From Cytophagales bacterium (GTDB taxonomy: Bacteria; Bacteroidota; Bacteroidia; Cytophagales; Cyclobacteriaceae): a stretch of DNA of 46,007 nt. The DNA is taken from NCBI GenBank assembly GCA_022360055.1, contig JAKSDO010000177.1:1-46007 (forward strand). Reading direction: 5' to 3'. The position numbers were made by a program, and so were the translations under genes. Within the stretch, counting starts at the first letter, position 1. Each line of letters begins with the position of its first letter. Below are positions 4,383-45,600 of this stretch, one piece after another. Under the pieces are notes generated by a model that had not been told where the DNA came from, searched no databases, and saw only the letters and a program-made list of their open reading frames with translations.

Positions 4383-5441
4383 ATGAAAACAATGAAAGGA
4401 GCATTCCTGCCCGGTAATAGTACGGTAGTGATGAAAGAGGTTGAAATTCCTGAACCAGGTCACGGACAAGTACTCATCAAAACAAAATCTTCGACAATTT
4501 GCGGAAGTGATATCAGAGCCATTTATCGTGAGCATTTGGGTAAAGGGCCTGAGGCTTACCAAAATAAGGTAGCCGGACATGAGCCGGCCGGGCAGATCAT
4601 CAAAGAAGGGCCCGGGCTAAAGAGATTTAAAAAAGGAGACCGGGTAGTGCTCTATCACATTTCAGGTTGTGGATGCTGTAATGATTGCCGGCGAGGATAT
4701 ATGATCAGTTGTACAAGTGATTACAGGGCAGCTTATGGCTGGCAGAGAGACGGAGGTATGGCCGAGTACATTATAGCTGATGAAAAAGACTGTGTTTTAC
4801 TTCCGGAGGAACTTACGTACACCGACGGAGCTCAAATAGCTTGTGGATTCGGAACAGTATACGAAGGATTGGAAAAGGTCGGAATTTGTGGCAATGACGC
4901 CGTTTTGGTAGTAGGATTGGGACCGGTCGGGTTAGCGACACTGATGTTGGCCAAAGCTATGGGAGCCAATGAACTAATTGGTGTTGATGTAGTTCCGGAA
5001 CGGTGCCAGATTGCCGTTGACAAGGGATTGGCTGACCATGTATTTATTTCCGGAGAAGATACCCTTGATAAAATATTGGAAGTTACCGAAGGAAATGGTT
5101 GTGAAAGAACTTGTGATACTTCGGGAAATACTCAAGGACGCCAATTAGCCATACGCGGTACCAGAAAGTGGGGGAAATGTGTATTCATCGGAGAAGGTGG
5201 TACGGTAGAATTCAATCCAAGTCCGGATATTATTCATGACCAGATCACTATTTTTGGTTCCTGGGTCACCAGTATTTGGAAGATGGAAGAATTGGTAGAG
5301 CGAATCAGAAGATGGGGAATTCATCCCGAAGATTTGGTGACCCACAGATTTACGCTCGACGATGTGAATAAAGCTTACGAATTGATGGATGAAGGAAAGT
5401 GTGGTAAGGTAGCTGTTGTCTTCGATGAGGAGATAAAATAA
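4383..5441 (+). CDS. Zinc-dependent alcohol/polyol dehydrogenase (MDR family)
   Basis: A 352-residue medium-chain dehydrogenase expected to oxidise a sugar, polyol or sugar acid alcohol with NAD(P)+ in the cytoplasm. Visible features: catalytic zinc ligands Cys40 (CGSD) and His66-Glu67 (GHE); four structural-zinc cysteines at 96, 99, 102 and 110; Rossmann glycine motif VVGLGPVG near 175. Length is typical of sorbitol and threonine dehydrogenase relatives. It opens the second operon, 118 bp after the shared operator, and is followed 8 bp later by the DUF6786-like gene. The substrate cannot be read from sequence; context suggests a hydroxyl of the sugar released by the GH29 enzyme. Confidence 0.88.
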
Positions 5442-5449
5442 ATCGCAAG

Positions 5450-6571
5450 GTGGCTGACAAAAATTTCAATGCGGATAAAACGTTTCTCGAAAAGCATCAG
5501 GATATTATAGTTCTCGAAGACGGGGACGCCAAAGCGCTGGTGTGTCCGTCCCTTCAGGGGCGGGTATTTACCAGCACGGCAGCGGGTGACGATGGTTTTA
5601 GCTTCGGCTGGATCAACTACAACCTGATAGAATCCGGCGAAATTCTCAAACATTGTAACAACTGGGGGGGCGAGGATCGTTATTGGATTGGCCCTGAAGG
5701 AGGACAATATTCCATTTTCTTCAAGCCGGGAGCGACCTTTGGTTTGCAGGATTGGCAAACCCCTGCACCCATCGATACCGAGTCATGGGCATTGGTTGCC
5801 TCTTCAGATAAAGAGGTTTCTTTGGTTAAGCATATGTCGTTGACAAATGCCTCTGACAGGCAATTGAAAGTGAAGGCAGAGCGCGATATCCTGTTATTCA
5901 ACCGGGAAGAAGTAGGATTGGAATTGGGAGTCGAAATGGCTGAAAATGTAAGATCGGTTGGTTTTAAGTCAATTAACAGGATGACAAATGAAAATGATTT
6001 TACGTGGACAAAAGCAACAGGCATGCTCTCCATCTGGATTCTGGGGCAATTGATTTCGACAGATAAAAATACCGTCATCATTCCCTATAAAAGCAATGCA
6101 AAGGGACCGATCCTCAACGATTCGTATTTTGGTAAGATCGAAGAGGACAGGTTAAAAGTGTTGGAAGGGGCGATTCTTTTTAAAGGCGATGGCAAAAAGA
6201 GAGGGAAAATCGGAATTGGTCCGGCCAGAACAAAACCTGTCATCGGAAGCTACGATGCTGAAAATGGAATCCTTACGATTGCAAAGTTTTCATTTGATCC
6301 TGCTAAGGAGGATTATGTGAACTCGATGTGGGAATATCAGGAAGATCCTTTTAGTGGCGACGTGGTAAATTCATACAATGACGGGCCTCTTCCGGACGGA
6401 TCTCAAATGGGACCGTTTTATGAATTAGAGACATCGTCGACCGCTGCAAATCTTGCTCCCGGAGAAATTCTTGCTCATGAACACGCTACTTTCCATTTTC
6501 AGGGCGATAAGCAAGTATTGGAAGGAATTGCAAAGGAATTATTGGGAGTTGGGTTTGATGCGTGTTTTTGA
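5450..6571 (+). CDS. DUF6786-like protein of unknown function
   Basis: A 373-residue cytoplasmic protein with a GTG start, 8 bp behind the dehydrogenase, so translated from the same transcript. No signal peptide or membrane segment. It resembles the DUF6786 group seen in Bacteroidota sugar clusters; the beta-rich pattern (ALVCPSLQGRVFTSTA near residue 28, FGWINYNLIESGE near 50, NWGGEDRYWIGPEGGQYS near 68) recalls aldose-1-epimerase folds, but I recognise no catalytic residues with confidence. Tight coupling to the dehydrogenase suggests that it acts on the same sugar, perhaps as mutarotase, lactonase or epimerase. That is inference from position. Confidence 0.75.
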   Translation: MADKNFNADKTFLEKHQDIIVLEDGDAKALVCPSLQGRVFTSTAAGDDGFSFGWINYNLIESGEILKHCNNWGGEDRYWIGPEGGQYSIFFKPGATFGLQDWQTPAPIDTESWALVASSDKEVSLVKHMSLTNASDRQLKVKAERDILLFNREEVGLELGVEMAENVRSVGFKSINRMTNENDFTWTKATGMLSIWILGQLISTDKNTVIIPYKSNAKGPILNDSYFGKIEEDRLKVLEGAILFKGDGKKRGKIGIGPARTKPVIGSYDAENGILTIAKFSFDPAKEDYVNSMWEYQEDPFSGDVVNSYNDGPLPDGSQMGPFYELETSSTAANLAPGEILAHEHATFHFQGDKQVLEGIAKELLGVGFDACF

Positions 6572-6624
6572 TCTGAGCCGTTCATCAAATCAACAAATCA
6601 GAGATTCAATTAGTTAAAAAAGTT

Positions 6625-7629
6625 ATGGAAAAGATTGATCCGGCATTAGTGCCCATGCGAAAATTGTACAACGGCGCAGAGATACCTGCCGTAGGACTGG
6701 GAACATTCGGTTCCGACAGGTTTGGCCATGAAGAGATCGCCAATGCAGTAAAAGAGGCGATCCGCTCGGGATACCGGCATATTGACTGCGCCGCAGTTTA
6801 TATGAATGAAAAATACATCGGAAAAGCGATTGCAGAGGTCATCGAAGAGGGGACTGTAAAACGGGAGGAACTCTGGATCACCGGAAAAGTCTGGAATGAT
6901 CGCCATGACGAGGTCGAAGAGGCCTGCCGGGAGTCATTGGATGATCTGCGATTAGATTATCTGGATCTGTACCTTGTACACTGGCCATTCCCAAATTATC
7001 ACGCCCCGGGCTGTGATGTGGATTCCCGCAGTCCGAATGCTGTTCCTTTCAAAATTGAAAACTTCATGAAAACATGGAGGCAAATGGAAACCCTGGTCGA
7101 GAAGGGAATGGTAAAAAATATCGGGACCTCCAACATGACACAGGCCAAAATGGAACTTCTCCTGAAAGACGCCAGGATCAAGCCTGTCGTAAATGAGATG
7201 GAGCTCCATCCTTGTTTTCAACAGCAGGAACTGTTTGATTTCATGATCGAAAACAAAATCCAACCCATTGGTTTCTGTCCGATCGGTTCACCTACACGGC
7301 CGGACAGGGATAAGACGGAAAACGATGCGGTAGATATCGAAGATCCGGCAGTTCAGAAAATTGCTGAAAGGCTCAATATTCATCCAGCGGTGGTTTGTGT
7401 CAAGTGGGCTGTCCAGCGGGGACAGATTCCGATACCATTCTCCGTTCATAAAAACGAGTATATGAGTAACCTGGAGGCCGCAATTAAAGATCCGATTACG
7501 GAGGAGGAAATGGAGGAATTAAAATCGGCTGAGCAAAATTCAAGGCTTATCAAAGGACAGGTGTTTTTGTGGGAAGGCGCAAAAGGATGGAAAGATCTTT
7601 GGGATCTTGACGGTAAAATTGCCCGGTAG
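6625..7629 (+). CDS. Aldo/keto reductase
   Basis: A 334-residue NADPH-type oxidoreductase of the AKR superfamily. The full catalytic tetrad is present at normal spacing: Asp54, Tyr59, Lys88 and His119 (DCAAVY, GKVW, LVHWP). Other AKR marks are VGLGTFG near residue 23 and KNIGTSN around 170. It lies 53 bp after the DUF6786-like gene and ahead of the symporter gene, so it probably belongs to the same induced locus. With the zinc dehydrogenase it could form an oxidation-reduction pair on a sugar aldehyde or ketose; the substrate is unknown. Confidence 0.9.
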   Translation: MEKIDPALVPMRKLYNGAEIPAVGLGTFGSDRFGHEEIANAVKEAIRSGYRHIDCAAVYMNEKYIGKAIAEVIEEGTVKREELWITGKVWNDRHDEVEEACRESLDDLRLDYLDLYLVHWPFPNYHAPGCDVDSRSPNAVPFKIENFMKTWRQMETLVEKGMVKNIGTSNMTQAKMELLLKDARIKPVVNEMELHPCFQQQELFDFMIENKIQPIGFCPIGSPTRPDRDKTENDAVDIEDPAVQKIAERLNIHPAVVCVKWAVQRGQIPIPFSVHKNEYMSNLEAAIKDPITEEEMEELKSAEQNSRLIKGQVFLWEGAKGWKDLWDLDGKIAR

Positions 7630-7823
7630 TAAAATTAGTTCATATTCGTGTATTCGTATTCCAAAAGTCTTACTTGATGCCTGGAATACCATTTTTTGAT
7701 GAGCGCGGAATCGTTTTATGGAAAAATAAAGCATCTGTTTAAAAAAATATTTGCTAGATTCACGAGATTTTTTTGATGAATGCATAATCTGCCTGCGCAG
7801 GGTATTTAAGAAACACCAAAAAT

Positions 7824-9116
7824 ATGAACAAAGTCAAAGGGGTACTGCTTGAAAAAAGATACATAGTTCCGTTCATTCTCATCACATGTTTATTTTCCAT
7901 GTGGGGTTTTGCCAATGATATTACCAATCCGATGGTAGCTGCCTTTAAAACCGTTATGGAAATTTCTACTGCCAAGGCCGCCATGGTACAGTTGGCATTC
8001 TACGGGGGATATGGCACTATGGCGATACCGGCAGCCTTATTTGCTATGAAGTATTCGTACAAAAAGGGGATTCTCCTGGGATTAATTCTATACGCTATCG
8101 GCGCGTTGCTCTTTTTTCCCGCCGCACAGTATGAGATGTTTGGTTTCTTCCTGGTCTCTCTTTACATCCTTACTTTTGGCCTTGCTTTTCTCGAAACCAT
8201 TGCCAATCCGTACATTCTGTCGATGGGCGAAGAATCTACGGCTACACGCAGGCTGAATTTAGCTCAGTCTTTTAATCCGATGGGTTCCATATTGGGGATG
8301 TTTGTAGCTTCAAACGTAATATTGTCGGCACTGGAATCGGACAAAAGGGATGCCGCCGGCGAATTGATTTTCCCGACCTTAAGCGCCGCTGAAAAAGCGG
8401 CAATACGAACGAATGATCTGGCTGTAATCAGGGACCCCTACGTAATCCTGGGTCTTGTGGTGCTGGTTATGTTTTTTATAATCTTGTTTGCAAAATTACC
8501 CAAGACTGAGCATACCGGTAAGGCGCGTGCCGGTGATTCCTTTAAGCGTCTGTTCAAAAACAAACTGTATATGGAGGGGGTAGCCGCTCAGGTGTTTTAT
8601 GTAGGCGTGCAAATCATGTGCTGGACGTTTATAATTCAGTATGCCGAAAATCTCGGAATCACCAAGGCCGCAGCCCAACGATACAACATCATTGCTATGG
8701 CCATATTTATTTCAAGCAGGTTCATCAGCACGCTCTTGATGAAATACATGAATTCGGCAAGACTGTTGATGTACTTCGCAATTGGAGGAATGATCACCAT
8801 AACCGGAGTGATATTTATAGAAGGCATGTTGGGCTTGTACTGTCTGATCGCCACTTCGGCCTTCATGTCCTTAATGTTCCCGACAATTTATGGTATAGCG
8901 CTCGATGGTATCGGCGAGGACGCAAAGCTGGGAGCCGCAGGATTAGTAATGGCAATTGTCGGAGGAGCGTTGATGCCTCCCTTGCAGGGAGCAATTATCG
9001 ATCTGGAAACTGTCGGATTTTTACCTGCAGTGAACTTCTCCTTTATCTTGCCGTTTATATGCTTTATTGTAATCGCTAGATATGGATATCGCGCATTCAA
9101 AAAAGTCCATGGATAA
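7824..9116 (+). CDS. fucP: FucP-type sugar:H+ symporter (MFS)
   Basis: The 430-residue membrane protein has about 12 hydrophobic segments and the pattern of the fucose:proton symporter family: SMWGFANDITNPM in helix 1 with the acidic residue equivalent to the proton-linked Asp of E. coli FucP, and AFLETIANPYI with the conserved Glu. The family imports L-fucose, and relatives take L-galactose, D-arabinose, glucose or galactose. It lies 194 bp after the reductase gene and 15 bp ahead of the mutarotase gene. Next to a GH29 enzyme, L-fucose or L-galactose is the best guess for its cargo, but FucP relatives vary widely in Bacteroidota. Confidence 0.88.
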   Translation: MNKVKGVLLEKRYIVPFILITCLFSMWGFANDITNPMVAAFKTVMEISTAKAAMVQLAFYGGYGTMAIPAALFAMKYSYKKGILLGLILYAIGALLFFPAAQYEMFGFFLVSLYILTFGLAFLETIANPYILSMGEESTATRRLNLAQSFNPMGSILGMFVASNVILSALESDKRDAAGELIFPTLSAAEKAAIRTNDLAVIRDPYVILGLVVLVMFFIILFAKLPKTEHTGKARAGDSFKRLFKNKLYMEGVAAQVFYVGVQIMCWTFIIQYAENLGITKAAAQRYNIIAMAIFISSRFISTLLMKYMNSARLLMYFAIGGMITITGVIFIEGMLGLYCLIATSAFMSLMFPTIYGIALDGIGEDAKLGAAGLVMAIVGGALMPPLQGAIIDLETVGFLPAVNFSFILPFICFIVIARYGYRAFKKVHG

Positions 9117-9131
9117 AAAATCCGAGTGTGT

Positions 9132-9521
9132 ATGAAATTTAAAAGATACTGTAAAACGCTGAAACTCGTTGACGATCCCGTATTGATCGAGCAATATAAA
9201 AAGGCCCATGGAATCGGCCGGGTATGGCCCGAGATCCGGGAAGGGATGAAGGAGGTCGGAATCCTCGACATGGAGATCTATATCCATGGTACCTCACTGT
9301 TTATGATCATGGATACTGTTGCGGACTTTGATCACGAAAAGGCCTTTGCCGAGTTGGCCCAAAAACCCAGACAGGCGGAATGGGAAGCTCATATGGCGCA
9401 ATTTCAACAATCTTCGGAAACTGCTTCGGCAGATGAGAAATGGCAGCTCATGGAGCGCATCTATGAGCTCGACCAGAAAATGGCATATCCGGCTTCCGAT
9501 GGCCAGCTCAAAGAGATTTAA
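9132..9521 (+). CDS. rhaM: L-rhamnose/L-fucose mutarotase-like protein
   Basis: A 129-residue protein of the RhaM (DUF718) family, which interconverts alpha and beta anomers of L-rhamnose or related sugars. The family signature AHGIGRVWPEI, with the conserved His, and IYIHGTSLFMIMDT are visible, and the protein is only slightly longer than the usual 104-115 residues. ATG at 9132 is preferred over the GTG six bases earlier because the family begins with an M-x-R/K-x type start (MKFKRYC). It is 15 bp downstream of the symporter and ends the first half of the locus. It fits fast conversion of the imported sugar anomer for the dehydrogenase. Confidence 0.85.
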   Translation: MKFKRYCKTLKLVDDPVLIEQYKKAHGIGRVWPEIREGMKEVGILDMEIYIHGTSLFMIMDTVADFDHEKAFAELAQKPRQAEWEAHMAQFQQSSETASADEKWQLMERIYELDQKMAYPASDGQLKEI

Positions 9522-10349: not shown

Positions 10350-10455
10350 TCGTAAATATTTTTAAATCAATGTTTCGAATGATCGGATTTTCAAAATTAA
10401 TAGTCGATCCGTCCAAATATTCTTCAAATTAATGTTCACGTGTGCATAAATTTAT

Positions 10456-10463
10456 TATATTTG
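10456..10463 (+). promoter_or_regulatory. Promoter -7 element of the uxuB operon
   Basis: TATATTTG is an exact TAnnTTTG match, 33 bp before the preferred uxuB start at 10497. No clear TTTG is seen at -33. Together with the minus-strand element it makes 10302-10496 a divergent promoter region. Confidence 0.45.
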
Positions 10464-10496
10464 GTTCAAAGACTACAATTCCAAACAAATACAAGC

Positions 10497-11345
10497 ATGA
10501 CAAAAATATCATTTGGCGATTTGAATAATAAAATCTGTGCGATCACGGGAGGAGGAGGTGTGATCGGTAAAGCGCTGGCCCTGGGGCTTGGATCGGCGGG
10601 AGTAAAAACCGCTTTGCTGGATTTGAACAAAGAAATGGCCGACAAAGTCGCCACGGAGGTGAAAGCTGAAACAGGAAGTGAATCAATCGGTGTGGAAACC
10701 AATGTGCTGGATAAAGCTTCATTGGAAACTGCTAAGGCAGAAGTAAATACAAAACTTGGAAAGATCAATATGCTGATCAACGGAGCAGGTGGCAATTCAC
10801 CAAAAGCCACTTCAACAGCCGAAGTAATGACCGATGATCTTAAAAATGATTTGGGCAAAACGTTTTTCGGGCTGGATATGTCCGGATTTGAATTTGTTTT
10901 TAACCTCAACTTTATGGGCACCATACTGCCGACGATGATTCTCTCAAAAGATATGCTCGATGCGGGCGGCGTGGTATTAAATGTGTCTTCCATGAGTGCG
11001 TACCGCCCTTTAACCAAAGTGCCTGCCTATTCTGCTGCCAAGGCCTCGATCAATAGTATTACGGAATGGTTGTCCGTACATCTTGCCCCGGTAGGCATCA
11101 GGGTAAATGCCATTGCCCCCGGATTTTTCATTACCAACCAAAACCGCTTTTTGCTCACGGACGAAAAAACGGGAGACCTCACCGCCCGCGGAGAGAAAAT
11201 TATTAATAACACACCAATGAGAAGATTTGGCGAAGTCGAAGAGTTACAGGGTACTGTAAATTACCTGATGTCCGATCTGTCCAAATTTGTGACGGGTATT
11301 GTACTTCCTGTTGATGGAGGATTCAACGCGTTTAGTGGGGTCTAA
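10497..11345 (+). CDS. uxuB: D-mannonate oxidoreductase (fructuronate reductase), SDR type
   Basis: A 282-residue short-chain dehydrogenase, expected to interconvert D-fructuronate and D-mannonate with NAD(P)H. It has the glycine motif TGGGGVIG (17-24), the Rossmann acidic end LLDLN, NGAGGNS and the catalytic Tyr178-x3-Lys182 (YSAAK). The longer frame opening at 10440 would add 19 residues with no family resemblance, and the promoter element lies inside it, so ATG 10497 is preferred. It is the first gene of a tight plus-strand set with uxuA 19 bp downstream; this pairing supports the assignment over other SDRs. It is the SDR type as in Bacillus, not the longer E. coli UxuB. Confidence 0.87.
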   Translation: MTKISFGDLNNKICAITGGGGVIGKALALGLGSAGVKTALLDLNKEMADKVATEVKAETGSESIGVETNVLDKASLETAKAEVNTKLGKINMLINGAGGNSPKATSTAEVMTDDLKNDLGKTFFGLDMSGFEFVFNLNFMGTILPTMILSKDMLDAGGVVLNVSSMSAYRPLTKVPAYSAAKASINSITEWLSVHLAPVGIRVNAIAPGFFITNQNRFLLTDEKTGDLTARGEKIINNTPMRRFGEVEELQGTVNYLMSDLSKFVTGIVLPVDGGFNAFSGV

Positions 11346-11364
11346 CTTTTAAAATACGAGAGCG

Positions 11365-12585
11365 ATGAGCATGGAGCAAACATGGCGATGGTACGGACCA
11401 AATGATCCCGTTACACTTGCCGATATCAGACAAGCCGGTGCAACTGGAATTGTCACCGCGTTACATGAGATTCCTATCGGTGAAGTCTGGCCGATTGAAG
11501 TCTTAAGGGCCAGAAAGAGGTTGATCGAGTGGGACGATAGTAAGACACCCGCAAAAGAGCGCGGGCTTACCTGGTCGGTTGTCGAGAGCATACCTGTGCA
11601 TGAGCACATAAAATTAGGGAAACCGGACCGGGATGCATGGATCGGAAAGTATAAGCAAAGCATAAGAAATGTCGGAGAAATCGGAGTAAAAACAGTTTGT
11701 TACAACTTCATGCCGGTCGTCGACTGGACAAGGACCAATCTCGAGTTTGAACTGGAGGACGGTGCCAGAGCTTTGGCCTTTGATATGCTGGAATTTGCCG
11801 CATTTGATATTTATATACTGAACCGGCCAAATGCCGAAGCAAGCTATTCCGAAGAAATCCTGAAATTGGCGAAGTCAAAATTTGAATCCCTCTCTTCCGA
11901 ACAGAGATATGTCTTGCAAAAAAACGTTATTGCGGGATTGCCGGGAGCTCAGGAGGGATACACCATCGAGCAATTCCTGGAAAAACTTGACGAATATAAA
12001 GACATCGACGACCAGGTTTACCGTGAGAATCTCGCCTACTTTCTCAAGGAGATCATTCCGGTGGCAATCGAAGCCGGAGTAAAGATGGCCATTCATCCGG
12101 ATGATCCTCCAATTCCCTTGTTTGGCTTGCCGCGGGTAGTAAGCACCGAATCTGATCTGGCGGCCCTGCTTGATGTTATTGATTCTCCTTACAACGGTTT
12201 TACCATGTGTACCGGATCTTATGGCGTACGCCCGGACAACGACCTGACAGGTATGATCGAGCGGTTTGGCGCAAAATTAAACTTTGCCCATCTCAGAAGT
12301 ACTCAACGCGACGGCATGGGAAGCTTTCACGAAGCAGGCCATTTAAGGGGCGATGTCGATATGTATGCCGTTATACTCGAGATCCTGAAAGAACAAAAAC
12401 GGCGGGAAGCCGTTTATCGCCCCGATGTCCAAATCCCGATGAGAGCAGACCATGGGCATACCATATTGGACGATTTGAACAAAAAGACCAATCCGGGCTA
12501 CTCCGCAATAGGACTGTTGAGAGGAATGGCAGAACTGAGAGGCCTTGAACTTGGTATCGAGAAAAGCAGTGTTGTTTATAAATAA
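11365..12585 (+). CDS. uxuA: Mannonate dehydratase
   Basis: The 406-residue enzyme removes water from D-mannonate to give 2-keto-3-deoxy-D-gluconate (KDG), using Fe2+ or Mn2+ in a xylose-isomerase-like barrel. Recognisable segments are the start [50 protein letters not shown], the metal-site stretch [10 protein letters not shown] and the end motifs FAHLRST and RADHGHTI. Length is normal. It sits between uxuB and kdgK with gaps of 19 and 6 bp, so the three consecutive steps of the uronate/mannonate pathway are encoded in order. The incoming sugar acid could be glucuronate-derived or, as proposed here, gluconate-derived through the LarA homologue. Confidence 0.95.
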
Positions 12586-12591
12586 TAGATC

Positions 12592-13671
12592 ATGAGCATA
12601 AAACTTAAAGACAATTGCAAATATGCCATACTGGTACCTACCAGCATGGGCGTGAGAATTACACCCGTAAACGGGCAACCGGTACACAGCAGCGATACTT
12701 TTATAATGCAAGCCACGAGCGCTGAAACAAATGTTGCCACAATATCTTCAATGTTGGGCCTGCCCGCTAAAGTATTGACAACTTTTGTCAAAGACAGCCC
12801 GGTTGCGAAATTCATCAAAAGCAATCTTAAAAGCAGAAATATAGATTACGAAGGCCCGGATGTGGAACAGGGAGGTCCTTGGGGGTACAGACATCAATTC
12901 AATATTGCAGACAGTGGATTTGCAACGCGAGGGCCAAGAGTTCACAACGATCGGGCAGGAGAAGTAGGCCGAACGTTAAATGTAAAGGATTTTGATCTCG
13001 ACCGGATTTTTGGGGCAGACGGCGTTCAAATTGTCCATTTATCGGGACTTATTGGTGCATTATCACCTGAAACAAGCGAGTTCTGCCTGGAAATAGCCAG
13101 AGCGGCCAAAAAATTTGGCACGCGTATTTCCTTTGACTTAAATCACCGGGCAACATTCTGGAAAGGAAGGGAAAAGGAGCTTCGAGATGCGTTTACGGAA
13201 ATTGCCTCGGTTGCCGATATTTTGGTCGGGAATGAAGAGGATTTTCAACTGTGCCTGGGCATTGAAGGACCGGAAGCCGGAGGTCAGGGTCTGGAAGCCA
13301 AGATCGAAAGTTTCAAAGGAATGATCGCAAGAGTAAAAGAGACTTTCCCGAATGCATCTGCCTTCGCAACCACCTTACGTGAGGTGGTTCATGTAAACCA
13401 CCACAAATGGGGAGCTATTATGCTTGAAGAAGATAACTGGCATGTCGTTAACCCAAGAGACATTCATGTGCTGGATCGCATTGGCGGAGGCGATGGATTT
13501 GTCGGAGGTTTACTTTACGGAGTTTTGCGGAATTGGGAACCTGAAAAGTGGATCCAATTCGGGTGGGCGACAGGAGCCATGGCCACCACATTCCTGACCG
13601 ATTACGCTCAGCCGGCCGACGAAGATATGGTCTGGAGCGTTTGGGCAGGGAATGCTCGGGTGAAAAGATAA
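12592..13671 (+). CDS. kdgK: 2-keto-3-deoxygluconate kinase (PfkB family)
   Basis: A 359-residue sugar kinase that should phosphorylate KDG to KDPG with ATP. The PfkB signature DRIGGGDGF carries the catalytic base Asp301, and SFDLNHRATFW and ILVGNEEDF are typical of KDG kinases. It starts 6 bp after uxuA and ends 11 bp before the LarA homologue. A KDPG aldolase, the next step, is not in the window and must be encoded elsewhere. A fructokinase-like role is possible from sequence alone, but the neighbours make KDG much more likely. Confidence 0.88.
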   Translation: MSIKLKDNCKYAILVPTSMGVRITPVNGQPVHSSDTFIMQATSAETNVATISSMLGLPAKVLTTFVKDSPVAKFIKSNLKSRNIDYEGPDVEQGGPWGYRHQFNIADSGFATRGPRVHNDRAGEVGRTLNVKDFDLDRIFGADGVQIVHLSGLIGALSPETSEFCLEIARAAKKFGTRISFDLNHRATFWKGREKELRDAFTEIASVADILVGNEEDFQLCLGIEGPEAGGQGLEAKIESFKGMIARVKETFPNASAFATTLREVVHVNHHKWGAIMLEEDNWHVVNPRDIHVLDRIGGGDGFVGGLLYGVLRNWEPEKWIQFGWATGAMATTFLTDYAQPADEDMVWSVWAGNARVKR

Positions 13672-13682
13672 TCGGAAAAACC

Positions 13683-14954
13683 ATGTTATATTTTAAAAGA
13701 GGTTCCGCCAAAGATTCATTGTCCATAGAGGATTTGTGGGATGGACTAACAATTGCACTGGACAAAATCGGTCCGCGAAAAAAGGTATTGGCCCTGCCTC
13801 CGGATTTCACCCGGTTTCATTCGTTTGCCGGTGAGCTGACACGGTTGAGCTACCGGTATTATGGCGATAAACTTATTGATATCCTGCCTGCGCTGGGAAC
13901 CCATACAAGTATGACCGATGAACAGATTGAAAAAATGTTTTCGGGTGTTCCAAAGGATTTGTTCAGGGTCCATGACTGGAGGAATGATGTGATCACGCTC
14001 GGGGAGGTCCCCGCCGAATTTGTAAAAAAAGTCTCTGAAGGCAGAGTGGATTATCCCTGGCCGGCCCAGGTAAATAAACTGTTGGTTGAAGGAGGGCATG
14101 ATCTCATTCTTTCGATTGGCCAGGTGGTGCCACATGAAGTAATTGGCATGGCCAATTACAATAAAAACATTTTTGTGGGCACGGGTGGAGTCGAGGGCAT
14201 AAACAAAAGCCACTTTATCGGTGCCGCCTATGGAATGGAACGGATAATGGGGCGGGCTGTAAATCCGGTACGAGAGATCATGAATTATGCTTCGGAGCAT
14301 TTTGCGCAGGACTTGCCCATTGTCTATATTCAGACGGTTGTCGGAAAAGACGAGCATGGAAAGCTTGCAGTCAAAGGGCTTTACATCGGTGATGATATGG
14401 AGTGTTTCGAAAAAGCTGCAGTATTATCTCTTGAAGTGAATTTCAAAATGTTGGATAAACCGTTAAAAAAAGTGGTCGTTTATCTGGATCCGTCCGAATT
14501 TAAAAGTACATGGCTGGGCAACAAAAGCATTTACAGGACGAGAATGGCTCTTGACGACGGGGGAGAACTGATTGTTTTGGCTCCCGGCCTAAAAGAATTC
14601 GGTGAAGATAAAGAAATCGACAGGCTCATTCGCAAATATGGATATTTGACGACCCCAGAGATTTTAAAGCTAACCAAAACAAATGAAGATCTTCAAAATA
14701 ATCTCAGCGCAACGGCCCATCTAATACATGGTACTTCCGAAGGCAGGTTCGACATCACTTATTGTCCGGGGCATTTAACAAAAGAAGAAATTGAAAAGGT
14801 ACATTATAAATATGCCGATCTGAATGAGATGCTTCAAATCTATAATCCAGAAAATCTGAGGGATGGCTTTAACACCTTACCAGGCGGGGAAGAGATCTAT
14901 TATATTTCAAATCCGGCTCTTGGTTTGTGGGCATTTAAAGATCGATTTCAGTAG
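13683..14954 (+). CDS. LarA-family nickel-pincer racemase/epimerase homologue
   Basis: A 423-residue homologue of lactate racemase LarA (DUF2088 plus C-terminal domain). LarA uses a nickel-pincer nucleotide bound covalently to a lysine to shuttle hydride at the alpha carbon of a 2-hydroxy acid. The key residues are in place: Asp41-x-x-Arg44 (DFTR), His74 (LGTH), His151, Lys161 and His177. The His151-Lys161-His177 spacing of 10 and 16 equals that of His174, Lys184 and His200 in Lactiplantibacillus LarA. The usual SGGxK near the lysine reads MANYNK instead, so the substrate is probably not lactate. ATG 13683 is chosen; the open frame before it overlaps kdgK. Position 11 bp after kdgK and before gnd suggests a sugar-acid substrate such as gluconate/mannonate. 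LarB, LarC and LarE are not in the window. Confidence 0.85.
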   Translation: MLYFKRGSAKDSLSIEDLWDGLTIALDKIGPRKKVLALPPDFTRFHSFAGELTRLSYRYYGDKLIDILPALGTHTSMTDEQIEKMFSGVPKDLFRVHDWRNDVITLGEVPAEFVKKVSEGRVDYPWPAQVNKLLVEGGHDLILSIGQVVPHEVIGMANYNKNIFVGTGGVEGINKSHFIGAAYGMERIMGRAVNPVREIMNYASEHFAQDLPIVYIQTVVGKDEHGKLAVKGLYIGDDMECFEKAAVLSLEVNFKMLDKPLKKVVVYLDPSEFKSTWLGNKSIYRTRMALDDGGELIVLAPGLKEFGEDKEIDRLIRKYGYLTTPEILKLTKTNEDLQNNLSATAHLIHGTSEGRFDITYCPGHLTKEEIEKVHYKYADLNEMLQIYNPENLRDGFNTLPGGEEIYYISNPALGLWAFKDRFQ

Positions 14955-15016: not shown

Positions 15017-16471
15017 ATGAAAGAATTAGCAGATATTGGTCTTATTGGTCTTGCCGTTATGGGTGAGAACCTGGTATTGAATATGGAAAGTAAGGGCTTC
15101 CGGGTTGCGGTATTTAACCGTACGGTCGCCAAGGTCGATAAATTCATGAACGGAAGGGGAGCCGGAAAAAATTTTATCGGGACTCATTCCATTGAAGAAC
15201 TGGTGAAATCGCTGAAACGGCCCAGAAAAGTCATGCTTTTGGTCAAAGCAGGCAGCGCCGTGGATGATTTTATCGAACAGATAATTCCTCATCTGGAGCC
15301 CGGCGATATTATCATTGACGGGGGAAACACCCATTATCCCGATACCGATCGAAGAACAAAGTATGTTGAGGACAAAGGCTTTTTATACATCGGCACCGGA
15401 GTTTCCGGAGGAGAAGAAGGAGCCTTATTAGGCCCTTCGATCATGCCGGGAGGATCAAAAGCAGCATGGGAACACGTAAAACCAATTTTCCAGTCGATTT
15501 CAGCAAAGGTCGAGGACGGCAGTCCGTGCTGCGACTGGGTGGGTGAAAGCGGCGCCGGACATTTTGTAAAGATGGTTCACAATGGAATCGAATATGGCGA
15601 TATGCAACTGATATGCGAAGCTTATCAGATCATGAAAGAATATTTGGGTATGTCGTACGACGAAATGCACCGGGTATTTAAGGAGTGGAACGAAGGCGAA
15701 TTGGATAGTTATTTAATCGAGATTACCAGAGATATTCTCGGCTTCAAAGATGAAAACGGTGAACCAATGGCTGAAAAAATTCTGGACACTGCGGGTCAAA
15801 AAGGGACCGGAAAATGGACCGGGGTCGCAGCGCTCGACCTGGGCATTCCCCTAACCTTGATCGGCGAAGCTGTTTTTGCAAGATGTCTTTCAGCAATCAA
15901 GGAGGAACGCGTTGAAGCTTCTAAGATACTTTCCGGCCCCACTCCAAAATTTGAAGGAGATAAAGACGTCTTTATCGAGGATCTTAAAAATGCCTTGTAC
16001 GCATCAAAAATCGTTTCTTACGCCCAAGGCTACGCTTTGATGGGTGAAGCTGCCAAAGAATATGGATGGAATCTGAATTACGGGGGCATCGCTTTAATGT
16101 GGCGGGGCGGATGCATCATTCGGTCCGTATTCCTCGGCAAAATCAAGGAAGCTTTCGATCATAATCCGGGATTGAAAAACCTGTTGTTAGATCCATTTTT
16201 CAAAGAAAAGATTGAGGCGGCCCAGGCATCCTGGAGAAGGGTTATCTCGGGAGCTGTCGCTAATGGCATTCCCGTACCCGCGCTAACTACCGCTCTCGCC
16301 TACTTTGACGGCTATCGGTCCGAACGGTTACCCGCAAATCTGCTTCAGGCGCAGCGGGACTATTTCGGAGCCCATATGTACGAACGGGTTGATAAACCAC
16401 GGGGAGAATTTTTTCACACAAACTGGACCGGAAGAGGAGGTGAAACCGCCTCATCGACATATGTAGTTTAA
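15017..16471 (+). CDS. gnd: 6-phosphogluconate dehydrogenase, decarboxylating
   Basis: The 484-residue enzyme oxidises and decarboxylates 6-phosphogluconate to ribulose 5-phosphate, making NADPH. Features: nucleotide-binding GLIGLAVMGENL at the N-terminus, NRT after strand beta-2 (NADP preference), IIDGGNTHYPDT, GVSGGEEGALLGPSIMPGG, the catalytic Lys185 and Glu192 in GHFVKMVHNGIEYGDMQ, and the C-terminal tail domain. Full length. It lies 62 bp after the LarA homologue and is followed by a strong terminator, so it ends the uxuB operon. Its presence puts gluconate-type metabolites next to mannonate ones in the same unit. Confidence 0.97.
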   Translation: MKELADIGLIGLAVMGENLVLNMESKGFRVAVFNRTVAKVDKFMNGRGAGKNFIGTHSIEELVKSLKRPRKVMLLVKAGSAVDDFIEQIIPHLEPGDIIIDGGNTHYPDTDRRTKYVEDKGFLYIGTGVSGGEEGALLGPSIMPGGSKAAWEHVKPIFQSISAKVEDGSPCCDWVGESGAGHFVKMVHNGIEYGDMQLICEAYQIMKEYLGMSYDEMHRVFKEWNEGELDSYLIEITRDILGFKDENGEPMAEKILDTAGQKGTGKWTGVAALDLGIPLTLIGEAVFARCLSAIKEERVEASKILSGPTPKFEGDKDVFIEDLKNALYASKIVSYAQGYALMGEAAKEYGWNLNYGGIALMWRGGCIIRSVFLGKIKEAFDHNPGLKNLLLDPFFKEKIEAAQASWRRVISGAVANGIPVPALTTALAYFDGYRSERLPANLLQAQRDYFGAHMYERVDKPRGEFFHTNWTGRGGETASSTYVV

Positions 16472-16530: not shown

Positions 16531-17532
16531 GTGAGTATTACAATAAAGGATATAGCCAAAATGCTCAATGTATCTCATACCACCGTATCGAGATCATTAA
16601 ACGATAGCCCACTCATAAGTGAGGAAACCAAAGAGCGCGTCAAAGAGATCGCTGAAAAGTATAATTATCGCCCGAATGTAAGTGCCCGAAGCCTTGTATT
16701 GTCAAAATCCTACAACATCGGCCTGTTCTTTTCAACGTTAAAAACAGGAACAACTGCCAATTTCTTTCTCAATTCCGTGCGCGGTGTAAATAGCATCGTC
16801 AAAGGGAAATATAACTTACCCGTTGAAGCAATTGACGACCTGGAAAGTTTTCAACAGATAAATCCCCGAACATTTGACGGAATCATTGTCATGAGCCAAA
16901 GCCCGAACGACGATGAATTTATTGCACATGTGTTGAAAGAAAAAATTCCCATGGTTGTTTTAAACCGGGAAGTTATAGGACAAAAAGTGACTACCGTTTT
17001 GTCCGACGATTATACCGGTGCCTACAATCTCACAAAATACATATTGGATCAAGGGCACAGGGACGTGGCCATCATCGAAGGTAAGCCTGAATTTAAAACT
17101 ACTTACAAAAGAAAGCAGGGATTTATAAATGCTCACATAGATGCCGGCCTGGAATTCAATGAAAGATATGCCTTCCCCGGAAACTATGACCTGGTAAGCG
17201 GATACAATGCCATGCAGAAAATTCTCGATCTGGACAAAAGACCCACCGCTGTATTTTGTTCTAACGACGAAATGGCACTTGGTGCGATGAAGGCAATTAA
17301 ACAGCAGGAAATTGCCATGCCCGATGAAATATCGATTTCCGGTTTCGATGACATGGGGTTTACAGCTTACCTAACTCCGACCCTGACAACTATATTGAGA
17401 CCGGTCGAAGAAATGAGTAAAGAAGGTGCGAAGATACTTCTAAACAAGATTGAAACCGAAGACGTTATTGAAACCGGCATCATTAACCTCGATACGGAAT
17501 TAATTATCCGGGATTCGATAAAAAAGCTCTGA
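16531..17532 (+). CDS. LacI/GalR-family transcriptional regulator (second)
   Basis: A 333-residue regulator with a GTG start. The helix-turn-helix begins at once (ITIKDIAKMLNVSHTTVSRS), so no later start is possible. The sensor domain includes IGLFFSTLKTGTTANFF, DGIIVMSQ, VFCSNDEMALGAMKAI and the closing ELIIRDS typical of the family. It is only distantly similar to the first LacI in its sensor half, so a different effector is likely, probably a sugar acid of the uxuB operon. It starts six bases after the T-run of the gnd terminator, so its mRNA must come from read-through or from a promoter inside gnd or the terminator region. Confidence 0.92.
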   Translation: MSITIKDIAKMLNVSHTTVSRSLNDSPLISEETKERVKEIAEKYNYRPNVSARSLVLSKSYNIGLFFSTLKTGTTANFFLNSVRGVNSIVKGKYNLPVEAIDDLESFQQINPRTFDGIIVMSQSPNDDEFIAHVLKEKIPMVVLNREVIGQKVTTVLSDDYTGAYNLTKYILDQGHRDVAIIEGKPEFKTTYKRKQGFINAHIDAGLEFNERYAFPGNYDLVSGYNAMQKILDLDKRPTAVFCSNDEMALGAMKAIKQQEIAMPDEISISGFDDMGFTAYLTPTLTTILRPVEEMSKEGAKILLNKIETEDVIETGIINLDTELIIRDSIKKL

Positions 17533-17635
17533 AAAGGCACATAATCATCGGAAAAATTAATTTTTAATGCAATTATATCGGCAATTTTCAGAGACATTTG
17601 CCGACTTTCTGCTAATATTGCGCAAAAAATACAAG

Positions 17636-18220
17636 GTGAAAAAATTAACTGTCGATCCTCGGGCCAGAGCCCTGATTTTTGATTTGGATGGAACCCTGGT
17701 GGATTCCATGCCGCTGCATTACGAAGCATGGAAAGAGGTCTGCCTCATGAAGGGTTTGAATTTCTCAGAGGAAGAATTTTATTCCCTGGCAGGCGTACCA
17801 TCTGACCGGATATTCGAAATTATCAATCAACGCCATGGCACCGACTTCGAACCTAAGACCGCCAGCCTACTCAAGGAGGAGACATATTTAAGGAAAATCG
17901 ATAAGCTGAAACCGGTAGAACCGGTTTTTGCTTTAGCCCGTGAATACCACGGGAAACTACCCATGGCCATAGGTACCGGCAGTCCGGGAGATCACTCCTG
18001 GGAGGCTGTTAAAGTGCTTGGCTTAGATAAATACTTTGATATTCTCGTTTCTAAAAACGATGTGACGGAAGGAAAACCAAATCCTGAAACATTTTTGAAA
18101 TGTGCCGAAGCCATGAATGTCGAACCGCAGTATTGCCAGGTTTTCGAAGATGGCGATCCGGGATTGCAAGCAGCCAAAACCGCCGGTATGATACCTACCG
18201 ATATCAGGGACTATATTTAA
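17636..18220 (+). CDS. HAD phosphatase/beta-phosphoglucomutase-like
   Basis: A 194-residue haloacid-dehalogenase enzyme acting on a small sugar phosphate. Motif I FDLDGTLVDS with the nucleophile Asp, the cap segment, motif II GTGSPGDHS, and the KPNPETF and FEDGDPGLQAAKTAGM motifs are all seen. GTG 17636 puts the start 12 residues before motif I, as is usual; an ATG at 17567 would add 23 residues of no family resemblance and cannot be excluded. It follows the second LacI gene by 34 to 103 bp. In beta-phosphoglucomutase subfamilies it may isomerise or dephosphorylate hexose phosphates; YqaB-like fructose-1-phosphatase activity is equally possible. Confidence 0.85.
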   Translation: MKKLTVDPRARALIFDLDGTLVDSMPLHYEAWKEVCLMKGLNFSEEEFYSLAGVPSDRIFEIINQRHGTDFEPKTASLLKEETYLRKIDKLKPVEPVFALAREYHGKLPMAIGTGSPGDHSWEAVKVLGLDKYFDILVSKNDVTEGKPNPETFLKCAEAMNVEPQYCQVFEDGDPGLQAAKTAGMIPTDIRDYI

Positions 18221-39635: not shown

Positions 39636-42600
39636 CTACTTTAACATCAAGCGTCTAAAAGTGGTACCACTTTCCTGAATTAATTTAACGATATACACAC
39701 CTCTTGTTGCTCCATACCCGAAGCTCAGTTCGATATCCCCGTACAGATCGATGGAATCGTATCGCTTGGTAAAGATGTGCGTACCGTTCATATTTACTAC
39801 TTCGATCACCAACGGTTGTGCGTGATCAATGCTATTCAAACGGATGTTCACGGAATTTCCACTTGTCGGATTCGGGTAAAGTACAAAATCAAGTTCTTTC
39901 ACTTCGTTCAGGACTTTATTAAGACGAACCACAATAATATCCGAATATTCATATGCTCCGTCAAAATCGACCTGCTTCAAGCGATAATAATTATTCGGGT
40001 AAACCGGCCTTCGGTGCAGGAAGAAGTAGGTCTGTTTTTCCTGTGTTGTTCCGGCTCCTTCCTCCTTTCCTACTTCGACAAAATTCGATCCATCCGTGGA
40101 ATGCTCAATCACAAAATAATCGTTGTTAAGCTCGGAGGCGGTTTCCCAGGTAAGCTTTACGATGCCATTCTGTTCCTTTCCTGTAAAGGATACCAACTCC
40201 ACAGGCAGCGGATTGGACAGATCGGTAGAACCGAGTGTGATTATTTTTTCACTGAATGAAACCGAAGAAGAGGAATTGAAAGATCCTTGAGACTGGCTAT
40301 GACCGCTGCTGAAGTTGGCCCCTCCATAATCGTCCCAGTTCGTTCCGTTCCAGACCATCACTTCCAACTGCTCGCGTTCTGCCATGGCAGAAGAAACATC
40401 GCTCTCAGCTCCCCAGCTCAAGCCAACAGTTGCCGTGACCCCGGACGGACCTGAATTGCCGTCCGAGATCTTCCAGTACTCCTGGGAGCTCATGGTAAGA
40501 ATGGATGGATCGGCAGGCGACAAATTGGTGACCGATGCTTCGTTAACAGCAGATGCACCAAAGTATTCAGCTTCCCAAGCCAGACCTCCCGTTGACACAT
40601 CCTGTACATAGGCTGGTCTGTAGCGAGTGGCACTTCCTATAGGAAAGGTAAAATCATCTCCGGCATTGGATAAAGTCTTTACTACACGGCCATTAACATA
40701 AGAATCTTCACTAGGACTGGTAACTGCCGCTGACGATCCCAATATTAATTTGTTGCCATTAGTATTGATAATTCCTTTCCTGAATTCCAATTCCTTTGTT
40801 ATCTCAATATCTCCATTTAAGACTAAACTTGTTCCAGTAACCTGTTTATTAATATGTAATATATTGAATGAATTTACTCCAATAAAGTTGCCGGTAATAA
40901 CAGACGATGTAGATTGAATACCAGCAACAGAATTAAACCAGATATCCGCATTTCCGGTCCCGCCGGAGAAACTGCCACTAATAAAATTGAAATCCGCCCA
41001 CAATCTGAAACTATGTGTATTTGATCCTATATCCAAGGCACCTCCATCCAAAACTAGAGACCCCAAAATAATTGTTCTCCCGCTTGTACTACCATAATAT
41101 TGTCCTCCAGTTATTTGAAAACTACCACTGACGAAAAAAAAGCTATTTGTGCCTGCTGGTGCATTTATAGTTCCACTTAATAAATTTGCGTCATTATTGA
41201 CAGTTACAAGCCTGTCATTTCGCATGTTTACAGTAGCCCCATCCACCACCAAATCCTCACAAACGGTCACATTTGCATTCGGTAAATTCCGATCTCCGGA
41301 TCCACTCAAAGTCAGGTTTCTTATATCCGGAATACCTCCAAGAATATCATAACTCCCCGTTCCTCCGTATTCCAGGCCACCGCCGGAGCACGAGAAAAAG
41401 GTGCCGAAGTCTCCTGCCGGTAACGACGGATTGCCGGCCCCATTATGCACGAACTTGAGCGTGCCTATCCCTTCTACGATGCCCAAGCGATGAAATTCCG
41501 TATCATTCACTTCGAGTACTCCCCCATCCTGGATCTCTGTCTTGTACAATTTCACATTGTCAATATCGAAATCCAGGGTATATCCGTTCGGGATCACTAC
41601 AACCGCACCACTCGGAGCGCCTCCGCCAGGCACATCGATATCGTAGCTGTTCCCGGCTACTGACCCACCGTTCACATCCACGGTGTAGGTCGCCACGTTA
41701 TCCGGTATGGCCTCATCGATGCCCGCAAAATAGTCTCCGCTCACTCCGTTTTCATCCACGCCGTTAAATACTGAAGCGGCTGAAAATGAAATGATATTAT
41801 TGGTTTCATCCAGATCCGATGCGTCATACTTATTCACAAGATTGGTCGGATTGCTGAAGGCCAGGATCCTGGCCGGGATGTAATCCGCCTCGCTGTAACC
41901 CGATTCTGTCACTGAAACGTCCGTCTGATCGTAGTAAAACTTGATATCTGCTGCAAATCCGGTGAAATTATTCGCCCGAAGCGTCCAGTAATATTGCAAT
42001 ACATTATTTACGTCCGGCTGGGAAGGCATTCCCTGTATCCCGTCATCGACCGTGGGATGATATTCATTGGCCGGCCTCACCGCTATACTGCCGACTGTCG
42101 AACCGCTGGTCCCTCCGGACACGCTGAAATCCACAGTCACCGGGGTATATTTTACTTCGCCGATCGGATAAGTAAACATGCCCGTATATCCGGCCGGAAA
42201 TATTTTGCCCAACCCATTATCGGTAAAGGAACTGTTGGTTTTCACCATGTTGGTCAGAGAGTATGTCGAAGTGGTACTTATCCATGCATTTTCGCCAAGG
42301 GTCACCGCTGAGCTGCCGATATTAAATACCCCATCGTTGAGTTTTAATCCGCCATCAATGTCAAAATCGTATCCATTGCCCTCGGGGATCACCAATCCGT
42401 TGGAATTCTGTAATGTGAGCATACCGATAGTTCCCGTACCGGAAGAAGACCGGGTAAGCTGCTGCTCTGCCGAACCGGAAAAACGCAGTCCGTCTCCGGC
42501 GCCTCCCGTACTCTGATGAGTGGCATCAATTTCAGCATTTCCTAAAACATCGATCGTATTGCCGTTGTCATCGAATATTCCTTCCGAAATGGTCAGATCA

Positions 42601-45600
42601 TTGTTTATTGTAAAAGCAATACTTGAATTGAGCGTTCCGGCACCCGTCTTATTGAAATCGTAAAACGCGGTCGTTCCTGTCCCGGATATGCTCTGCGCCG
42701 AAGAGCCTGAAAAAGTAGTTTTGTTTGCGCTGGGCGTATACGTTCCATCATTCACAAAATCGCCCTCCAGAATCAATTCCAGAGCATTCCCATCCAGCTC
42801 AGCGCCGGCATCAATCGTAAGCGTATTCGTCAGATTCAGAGGATTCACCTGAATTATTCCTGTCGGGTAGTTTGGCCCTCCGGTAATGGTCAGGCCCGCC
42901 AAAGGTATATTGGCATTGATGCCAAATGAAGTTTGACCGGCAGGTGTATCCGAATTTCCAATAACTATCGTTTGAGTTACGTCGCTGAAAGTCGGCAGGA
43001 TTCTTAATGCCGCGACACCCGGACTGGCGGTATTTTGTCTCACTAATGTTAAAGAACCTCCTGTATACGTAAAATTACTGCCTGTGTTCAGGATCTCAAA
43101 TACACTTCTGGAAGCTTCCGGAGCTGCATTTTTCCCCACTACTACCGTACCCCCTGTTTGGGTATAATCCAATACGCTTTTTGTGGTGATGGGATTTCCC
43201 CGAACCTGAGAGCCGACGACCAGAGTACCAGAGCTTATGTCAATGCGGGCACTTTCGGATGAAGAATACTCGATGTAATTATTGCCATTTCCCGAGCCAT
43301 CATCCATATCCACCGTGCCGCCGTCAATAATCAGCGAGCCGTCAAGAAATATCCCTGAGTCATCGCCGCTTACATTGACCTGCCCATCGCTTACCTGTAA
43401 ACCGGCAGTAGCGGGAATGTTGAAATCGTCATCACCTGTACTCAGATCGATATTGATGGATGAATTGTTGATCACCGCGATCCCATTTTCGAGTGTCAGC
43501 GCCTTATCCACACCCACACCGCTGGTGGGGCCATCCAGTGTAAAATTACCATCAAAAGAGAACGAAGAAGATTGATCCGTTCCCTTGTTTACCGTAACGG
43601 AGTACAGACTGGCGTCTGCTCCACTGGTTTGCTCAAAGTTGTGTGTTCCTTCTCCGCTCAACGTCAGATGCACATAATCCAATCCGGCCCCTGAGCTCAG
43701 TTGAAGACCTCCTCCGCTCGTATTGTCCTGTATAATATTGCAGTGCACAATAAGATTGCTTACTTGCACAGGAGCATTGGCGCTTCTTATATTTACCAGG
43801 GCATTCTGATTGACCAGCTCCAGATCACCCAATACTTCAATTGTTCGGGAGGCATCGTTCGGGAAGGCGATTTCGCCATCGCCCTGACTATCATTGCCAT
43901 TAATATCCAATCGAATAATTCTTAAGTCTCCTTCCACGTAAAAGTCACCCGAACCCCCACTGCTCAACACAAGATTCACATCCCCCAACAACTCAAAGTC
44001 TTCCTTGACCGTTACATCGGACGATATCTCAAAATCTCTGTCTATACTGCCCCAACCATTGCCCGCAATCATCAAGTTGGGCACTTCCGAAGGAATATGA
44101 TCATACACAAAAGAACTGTTGGTGCTCTCGTAGATCATATAAGCCGAATCCTCGAGCGCAAACGCTCCCATATCTACTGAACTGAAATCCGGATCAACCT
44201 GACTACCACCTGTAGACCTCATCCAGAATGCGCCCTCTCCTTTTACAGCTTGAGCATTCATGGCGCCTCCCGGATTGATGCATACAGTAGGTCGGAACTG
44301 AAAATTATATTCATAATTTCTCGCCGTCGGATTGTCGCTCATGTCGAGCATTTGAGTAAATCGCAATTCGGCAAAAGTTTCCGTACCGTCAATCTCGATA
44401 CCGTGAGGCTTCCCATCGTCATATGCCGGATCGCCATATGGTACCCAGCCGACGTAAGCGATATCTCCTGCCTTCGGATAATCTGCGGCTGCCGGCTGCC
44501 GGCTGTCGTGTGGCTCCAGGCTACCGTTAGGCGCCAGGGTCCAATTTGTTATTGTGCGCCAGTTGGTCATCGCGGCGTCGCCCAGCACCCGGGTATAATA
44601 TACTTCCACGTTTCCGGTAAACCTTGCGGGTGCTCCGGCGGTATAGTTGGCCAACTCCAGCGTAAAAGGAGAAGCCCCGCTACCTGTATCGCCGTTAAAT
44701 GTTATGCTATTCGTTGAGGTATTTATATTGGATGCAATTTCACTCGACCTGGTAAAAGGCGTATCGTCAAGGACTTTCCCGGGCACATAACCCGCTTCAT
44801 TTCCGCCGTCCACATCATCGTCATAATAGGTAAATTGATAGGTCACTGTAGGCAGGGTGGAAAAATCCGAATAATCGACCCGCCAATAGTACGACAAAAT
44901 ATCCCCCGATGGATTTGTTGTGGCCAACTGGTCGTCGACCGTTCGAATGGTAATATAGCCATCGTCGGAATAGTTGCTTATCGTCACCTGAGCAGGTGTA
45001 TATTTTGAATTTCCGGTTCCGGGCCCGACATCCACATCCGCATCCAGGCCATCCGTACCTATTCCAATAGGAAACGTCAGGGTTTGATCGGCATTTACAT
45101 AGAGCGATAATCCGCCGTCGGAAGTATTCCCATCCAGGATGAGCATATCCTCCACGGAATTACACCCCCCGCAACTATTCCAGTCTGCCTCGCTTACATT
45201 TAAGTTTATAAACAATTTATCGATTTTAAGATTTTGATTCTTCAGATCAATTCTGCCATGCTTGTATTCCATACGTTCCATATAGACATCACTGACCAGG
45301 GTTACGATATTGCTTCCATTGTTCAAACGCACGTTCCCAAATTTGGAGGTATCTGCTGTGATCAAAACAAACGGGTCCGGTCTGAATTTGATCAAATCGT
45401 TATCGCTGTTGCTGTTTGCGTCGGTTGTCGCACCCGTAGGTTCGTATAATGTAAGATCGTCGTAGTTCAACAAGGTATCCGTGTAAACCCGTATGCTGTA
45501 GTGCGTTTGATCAAGCGTTCCGCTAAGCAATTTAAGAGCGTCTCCATTTATCCTCAATAGATTGTTTGCATTCCCCTCCCTGTTGGTACCGGTTTTCCCG

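Follow-up and report, generated by a model that had tools for sequence, protein, structure and literature searches.

A probable hexonate 2-epimerase of the LarA superfamily beside a predicted PfkB-family gluconokinase in a Cytophagales genome

Genes at the locus

The window is the whole stretch of DNA analysed here, 46,007 nucleotides from a Cytophagales bacterium (contig JAKSDO010000177.1 of assembly GCA_022360055.1). Its forward strand carries uxuB, uxuA, a kinase gene of the PfkB family, a gene for a homologue of the lactate racemase LarA, here called LarAH, and gnd (Table 1). The gaps between these five genes measure 19, 6, 11 and 62 bp, in agreement with the 6 to 62 bp given in an earlier note on this DNA. 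The listed start of uxuB is a GTG at 10440, and there is an in-frame ATG at 10497.

For comparison, the related loci used throughout are the best 80 of at least 570 confirmed matches to LarAH. They are close relatives, 69-82% identical, and the window's own locus stands outside the 80. They span Bacteroidota, Ignavibacteriota, Calditrichota, Verrucomicrobiota, Planctomycetota and others. Searches of entire genomes covered 25 genomes: the window's own plus 24 from among the 80, chosen mainly for long flanks. Papers are cited by PMC number.

The LacI-family gene behind gnd likely regulates the operon. The HAD-like ORF that follows it recurs in 4 of the 80 related loci (best 80 of at least 570), so its membership of the operon is doubtful.

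Upstream on the same strand, at 4383-9521, lie genes for a Zn-dependent dehydrogenase, a DUF6786 protein, an aldo/keto reductase, a FucP-type permease (TIGR00885, 600 bits) and an L-rhamnose mutarotase (by Pfam rhaM). As a set, these look like a deoxysugar cluster. On the reverse strand, at 39636-45908, there is an ORF of 2090 aa that resembles a large surface protein, judging by its translation alone.

Table 1 Positions of the features in the window and of PfkA-like kinases in three related loci.
Feature	Position	Strand	Evidence
uxuB, SDR-type D-mannonate oxidoreductase (fructuronate reductase)	10440..11345	+	NF006132 366.7 bits, cut-off 281
uxuA, mannonate dehydratase	11365..12585	+	TIGR00695 557.7 bits, cut-off 199.55
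PfkB-family kinase, class A, predicted gluconokinase	12592..13671	+	Pfam PfkB 76.4 bits; tree
LarA homologue, group 18 (LarAH)	13683..14954	+	NF052594 675.4 bits; residues; 4nar E 6e-39
Codons H151-E152-V153...MANYNK161...H177 of LarAH	14133..14213	+	alignment to LarA and GntE2
gnd, decarboxylating NADP-dependent 6-phosphogluconate dehydrogenase	15017..16471	+	TIGR00873 780 bits, cut-off 426.7
LacI-family regulator	16531..17532	+	Pfam LacI 59.8 bits; 59 bp after gnd
HAD-like ORF	17567..18220	+	label from translation reading; 34 bp after regulator
PfkA-like kinase, locus L026	143-1423		PRK14072 over cut-off (scanned)
PfkA-like kinase, locus L028	4908-6212		
PfkA-like kinase, locus L081	7736-9016		PRK14072 over cut-off (scanned)

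Family and residues of LarAH

The LarAH gene is an intact frame of 423 aa, with an ATG start and a TAG stop. Compared to its relative in locus L007, it differs at 70, 39 and 245 first, second and third codon positions over 422 codons, a pattern as would be seen under protein constraint.

The best-scoring NCBIfam model is NF052594, described as 'nickel-dependent putative hexonate epimerase', at 675.4 bits, where the cut-off is 500. A malate racemase model comes next, at 37.6 bits. The Pfam domain Lar_N (PF09861) scores 30.5 bits, with a cut-off of 23.3. NF052594 corresponds to LarAH group 18, NPN_18_hexonate, of Desguin 2020. That paper put forward a hexonate substrate as a hypothesis, and its Table 1 lists no enzyme of group 18 (PMC7583248). 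The best relative in the PDB is 4nar, the GntE2 of Thermotoga maritima, at 137 bits over 347 residues (E 6e-39), while the lactate racemase 2yjg scores 15.6 bits.

In a tree of the LarA superfamily, LarAH does not group with the lactate racemases: three lactate-type sequences separate from the remainder with support of 100/100. The tree is built on the N-terminal domain only, from 19 of the 80 loci and 17 sequences of the phylum. The stem leading to group 18 is long, several rows have long-branch warnings, and the exact sister of the group is unsure.

The LarA residues and spacings listed in the earlier note are all present. LarAH has D41-x2-R44, H74, and H151-K161-H177 with the spacing of 10 and 16 that LarA has, and K281 can be added to these. 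By alignment, the NPN-binding R75, K184 and H200 of LarA are R44, K161 and H177 here, and the catalytic D72, H108, H174 and K298 are D41, H74, H151 and K281. The predicted roles are then catalytic histidine for H151, substrate loop for E152-V153, NPN-linking lysine for K161 and nickel histidine for H177. The alignment also has MANYNK in place of the SGGRK loop of LarA-type enzymes, so the change away from SGGxK that the note had remarked on is real. All key residues are invariant in 45 of 45 aligned group-18 sequences, which are the window protein (P0001) and 44 of the 80 related loci.

The usual GntE residues are E, V, A and H, and the loop signature of lactate racemases is F-F (PMC11770544). 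The first two, E-V after the second catalytic histidine (E-S in GntE2), are found as E152-V153, again in 45 of 45. The A-H pair, which is part of the GntE signature, was sought at the positions of W358 and T359 of LarA. A345-H346 is invariant in the aligned group 18; HMMER pairs it with the A-H of 4nar, and MAFFT does not.

Going by its sequence, the gene very probably encodes an enzyme that uses a nickel cofactor to invert the configuration at one carbon of a sugar acid. More specifically, LarAH is probably a LarA-type NPN enzyme with hexonate (mannonate/gluconate) 2-epimerase activity. Here the earlier note's main proposal, a mannonate/gluconate 2-epimerase, stands as probable, on the family model, E152-V153, the hexuronate-type operon, the larE-larB-larC genes described below and the tree; its substrate is deduced. 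Because group 18 carries MANYNK where others have SGGxK, and N280 in place of a G, its substrate may differ from that of GntE2. The protein itself has no feature that distinguishes it within group 18; the recurring operon and the kinase are what this analysis adds.

Group 18 is found over the cut-off in 16 of the 296 genomes of a phylum sample, including the window's own. The other genomes share only the phylum with it; none is of the same class, order or family. This patchy distribution may point to horizontal transfer.

Cofactor genes

The genome of the window measures 7.55 Mb in 300 contigs, is 98% complete, and has one LarA homologue matched by the LarAH query. The genes that the earlier note had tied to such an enzyme, larB, larC and larE, are there: larE, larB and larC are contiguous on contig C224, each over its cut-off. 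None of the three was found within the 80 related loci (best 80 of at least 570).

Across the 25 group-18 genomes searched, LarC has a match in 17, of which 8 are over the cut-off. In the other 8, all titled MAG, LarC has no match. Each of the 8 genomes without MAG in the title has a match, in 7 of them under the cut-off. Strict co-occurrence of LarC and group 18 was not seen in these 25. The missing LarC in eight MAGs may be due to incompleteness, or to another source of the cofactor.

Recurring neighbours

Within 6 kb of LarAH, UxuB is found in 62 of the 80 related loci, a PfkB kinase in 59, Gnd in 52, UxaC in 23, UxaE in 19 and UxuA in 2 (best 80 of at least 570). In the 36 of these 80 loci whose flanks reach 6 kb or more on each side, UxuB is present in 31, PfkB in 31, Gnd in 28 and UxuA in 1, and 23 of the 36 have UxuB, PfkB and Gnd together.

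There are exceptions. Five of the 36 long-flank loci (L011, L066, L074, L079 and L081) lack a PfkB kinase within 6 kb, and the only kinase near LarAH in L045 and L073 is of the KdgK type. A PfkA-like kinase (PRK14072) stands directly before LarAH in L026 and L028, and one gene away in L081. In L038 and L056, both Verrucomicrobiota-type, a PfkB kinase of class B (see below) comes directly before LarAH, with no UxuB or Gnd near.

Some loci also have a PdxB-like D-2-hydroxy acid dehydrogenase between LarAH and Gnd, for example L011 (11281-12423), L035 (12258-13535) and similar ones. It is over the PRK00257 cut-off in L011 and L035, and lies within 6 kb in 18 of the 80 (best 80 of at least 570).

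The neighbouring kinase

The gene at 12592-13671 had been labelled kdgK in the earlier note, which turns out to be incorrect. The KDG kinase 2afb is also of the PfkB family by sequence, but it scores 111 bits to the window kinase versus 332 bits to a second kinase, on contig C123. That one adjoins an aldolase over the PRK07114 cut-off (Eda-type), as well as UxaC- and UxaE-like genes. A tree of the kinases, which carries the program's long-branch warning, places the window kinase with 37 others in class A (100/100), which has a long stem; the sister group is class B (99/94). The C123 kinase groups with 2afb and 17 kinases from the loci, 12 of which come directly before an Eda-like gene; the fork joining the group of 2afb has 93/70. 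Bit scores, clade and the separate kdgK-eda pair together rule out that the window kinase is an orthologue of KdgK.

Classes A and B share residues at 13 positions where they depart from the KdgK clade, in a comparison that omitted five divergent rows, namely 4gm6 and four kinases from the loci. Shared descent alone could be the source of this.

Both types of kinase, A or B and KdgK-type, occur together in at least 13 of the 80 loci (best 80 of at least 570). Genome-wide, class A (at least 72% identity) is present in 22 of the 25 genomes and class B (33-34%) in the other 3. All 25 thus have one or the other, also where it is distant from LarAH.

Other gluconokinases were sought as well. No TIGR01313-type GntK was found in the genome of the window, and none of the 25 genomes has a TIGR01313 match over the cut-off; 6 have weak matches of at most 22.9 bits. 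TIGR01314, the FGGY gluconokinase, is not over its cut-off in any of the 25, a cut-off that only 2 of 14 controls passed, and 23 of the 25 have matches at E 0.001. There are 8 FGGY matches in the genome of the window. The two that were scanned are best described as xylulokinase, at 308 and 357 bits, under the cut-off of 380. FGGY gluconokinases may exist elsewhere, a point against a gluconokinase role for the PfkB kinase.

On the strength of its sequence and neighbours, the PfkB kinase is predicted to be a gluconokinase that is not orthologous to KdgK. A search of titles and abstracts in the open-licence PMC literature found no paper that describes a PfkB kinase as the partner of a LarA homologue.

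Distribution of UxuA

UxuA has a match in 14 of the 25 genomes, one of them a fragment. The remaining 11 searched, including Marinilabilia rubra and Mariniphaga sediminis, have no match. Besides the window's own, 12 genomes have a strong match. In one of these (L023), UxuA is inside the LarAH locus; the surroundings were inspected in the 11 others. In each of these, the UxuB that accompanies UxuA is a different one, sharing 36-47% identity with that of the window, and no LarAH or PfkB match was found within about 19 kb. Since UxuA is there with another UxuB and away from LarAH, the LarAH operon does not need it.

A conserved link between UxuA and LarAH was rejected, given UxuA in 2 of 80 loci (best 80 of at least 570) and no UxuA match in 11 of 25 genomes. 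uxuA is an optional member of the operon.

The genome of the window also has two further matches to the UxuA model (131 and 48 bits) on contig C5, at 11361-12176, in an open frame of 365 aa; this is a second UxuA-like gene.

Known systems and a proposed route

In T. maritima, GntE2 is a demonstrated D-gluconate 2-epimerase, acting on D-mannonate and D-gluconate (PMC7583248), and the gnd-uxaRED-gntEK operon is apart from the kdgAK-uxuBA operon (PMC3750489). The first of these resembles the one in the window in having an SDR of the UxuB type (UxaD), an epimerase, a kinase and Gnd together. It has GntK, which we take to be of the FGGY type, where the window has a PfkB kinase. GntE2 has an SGG loop instead of MANYNK and matches LarAH with 137 bits, over only 347 residues. 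Two further enzymes are alike in activity, being D-mannonate/D-gluconate epimerases: GntE1 (group 19) of C. glutamicum (PMC7583248) and LarAH15 of P. nicotianae (PMC11770544).

The route suggested here is modelled on the one proposed for the Thermotoga gnd-uxaRED-gntEK operon. It builds on computed results, namely the family, the residues, the operon, the cofactor genes, the recurring neighbours and the non-orthology of the kinase to KdgK. From these we infer what LarAH acts on, in which direction, and what the kinase phosphorylates. We consider it somewhat probable that LarAH interconverts D-mannonate and D-gluconate at C2, in the conserved operon mainly from mannonate to gluconate, feeding the PfkB kinase and Gnd, with uxuA as a second branch in the genome of the window.

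UxuB would turn fructuronate into mannonate, LarAH mannonate into gluconate, and the adjacent kinase gluconate into 6-phosphogluconate. The last of these is the substrate of Gnd, which would produce ribulose-5-phosphate and CO2. The presence of uxuA in the operon means that KDG formation is also expected in the window's genome, where UxuA would take mannonate to KDG and on to the separate kdgK-eda pair. UxuB consumes a reduced cofactor and Gnd yields one, so the route could be redox-balanced, as has been argued for the route in Lactobacillus suebicus (PMC6978723).

LarA-type chemistry is a proton-coupled hydride transfer (PMC11770544). By analogy to LarA, H74 or H151 would take the proton of the C2 hydroxyl, and a hydride would move onto the NPN cofactor, which K161, R44 and H177 hold, and then return. 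In between, a 2-keto intermediate would form.

Alternative readings

The main rival is the order in which the kinase acts first, as in L. suebicus. The PfkB kinase would then phosphorylate mannonate, and LarAH would epimerise 6-phosphomannonate to 6-phosphogluconate. Extracts of L. suebicus have activities of a mannonate kinase and a 6-phosphomannonate 2-epimerase, in a pathway that, like ours, leads from mannonate to 6-phosphogluconate and Gnd; its proteome contains a homologue of T. maritima GntE, although the genes were not established (PMC6978723). The MANYNK change leaves room for another substrate, and this order keeps the same gene set. However, GntE1, GntE2 and LarAH15 all work on free mannonate (PMC7583248, PMC11770544), and we regard this order as unlikely.

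The earlier note had proposed the same chemistry in reverse: gluconate becomes mannonate and enters through UxuA and KdgK without a gluconate kinase. Followed to its end, this route would go on to Eda. In its favour are uxuA in the operon, the kdgK-eda pair in the genome, the fact that no TIGR01313-type GntK was found there, and the reversibility of epimerases. This entry does not sit well with the scarcity of UxuA, which is in 2 of the best 80 of at least 570 loci and has no match in 11 of 25 genomes. The adjacent kinase, furthermore, is not KdgK, a KdgK-type kinase and Eda are on another contig, and Gnd recurs downstream. The opposite direction, mannonate to gluconate, fits the evidence better. 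The reversed route is improbable, though it may still operate in the genome of the window, which does have UxuA.

LarAH could also epimerise another aldonate or an aldarate, with only an indirect link to mannonate. The KM of GntE1 for mannonate is 120 mM, and its authors suspect a different native substrate (PMC7583248). Group 18 and GntE2 differ at the SGG loop and at N280, and in the Verrucomicrobiota loci L038 and L056 the pair of kinase and LarAH has neither UxuB nor Gnd near it. Against this, UxuB, named for mannonate, and Gnd, which uses 6-phosphogluconate, link exactly mannonate and gluconate, and another substrate appears about as improbable as the reversed route.

That LarAH is a racemase of lactate or another short-chain 2-hydroxy acid, in this operon by chance, is very improbable: it has the superfamily and the cofactor-binding and catalytic residues in common with LarA, but lactate racemase identity was rejected on the family score, on 15.6 bits to 2yjg versus 137 to GntE2, and on its separate place in the tree, and its substrate loop is E-V, not F-F.

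Implications

Returning to the route from mannonate to gluconate, there is perhaps an even chance that the kinase is a gluconokinase or mannonate kinase of a new, non-orthologous kind. With the epimerase it would form a two-gene module through which hexuronates reach the pentose-phosphate pathway, with no need of mannonate dehydratase, KDG kinase or KDPG aldolase. Its range would take in Bacteroidota, Ignavibacteriota, Verrucomicrobiota, Planctomycetota and further groups. Kinases of two PfkB classes would occupy the kinase position, and three loci have a PfkA-like kinase in or near it.

If the proposed route is true, group 18, for which the cited papers name no assayed member, would gain a substrate. 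The Thermotoga-type bypass from mannonate to gluconate would be spread over several other phyla. It would also predict a gluconokinase of the PfkB family, one that is easily mistaken for a KDG kinase.
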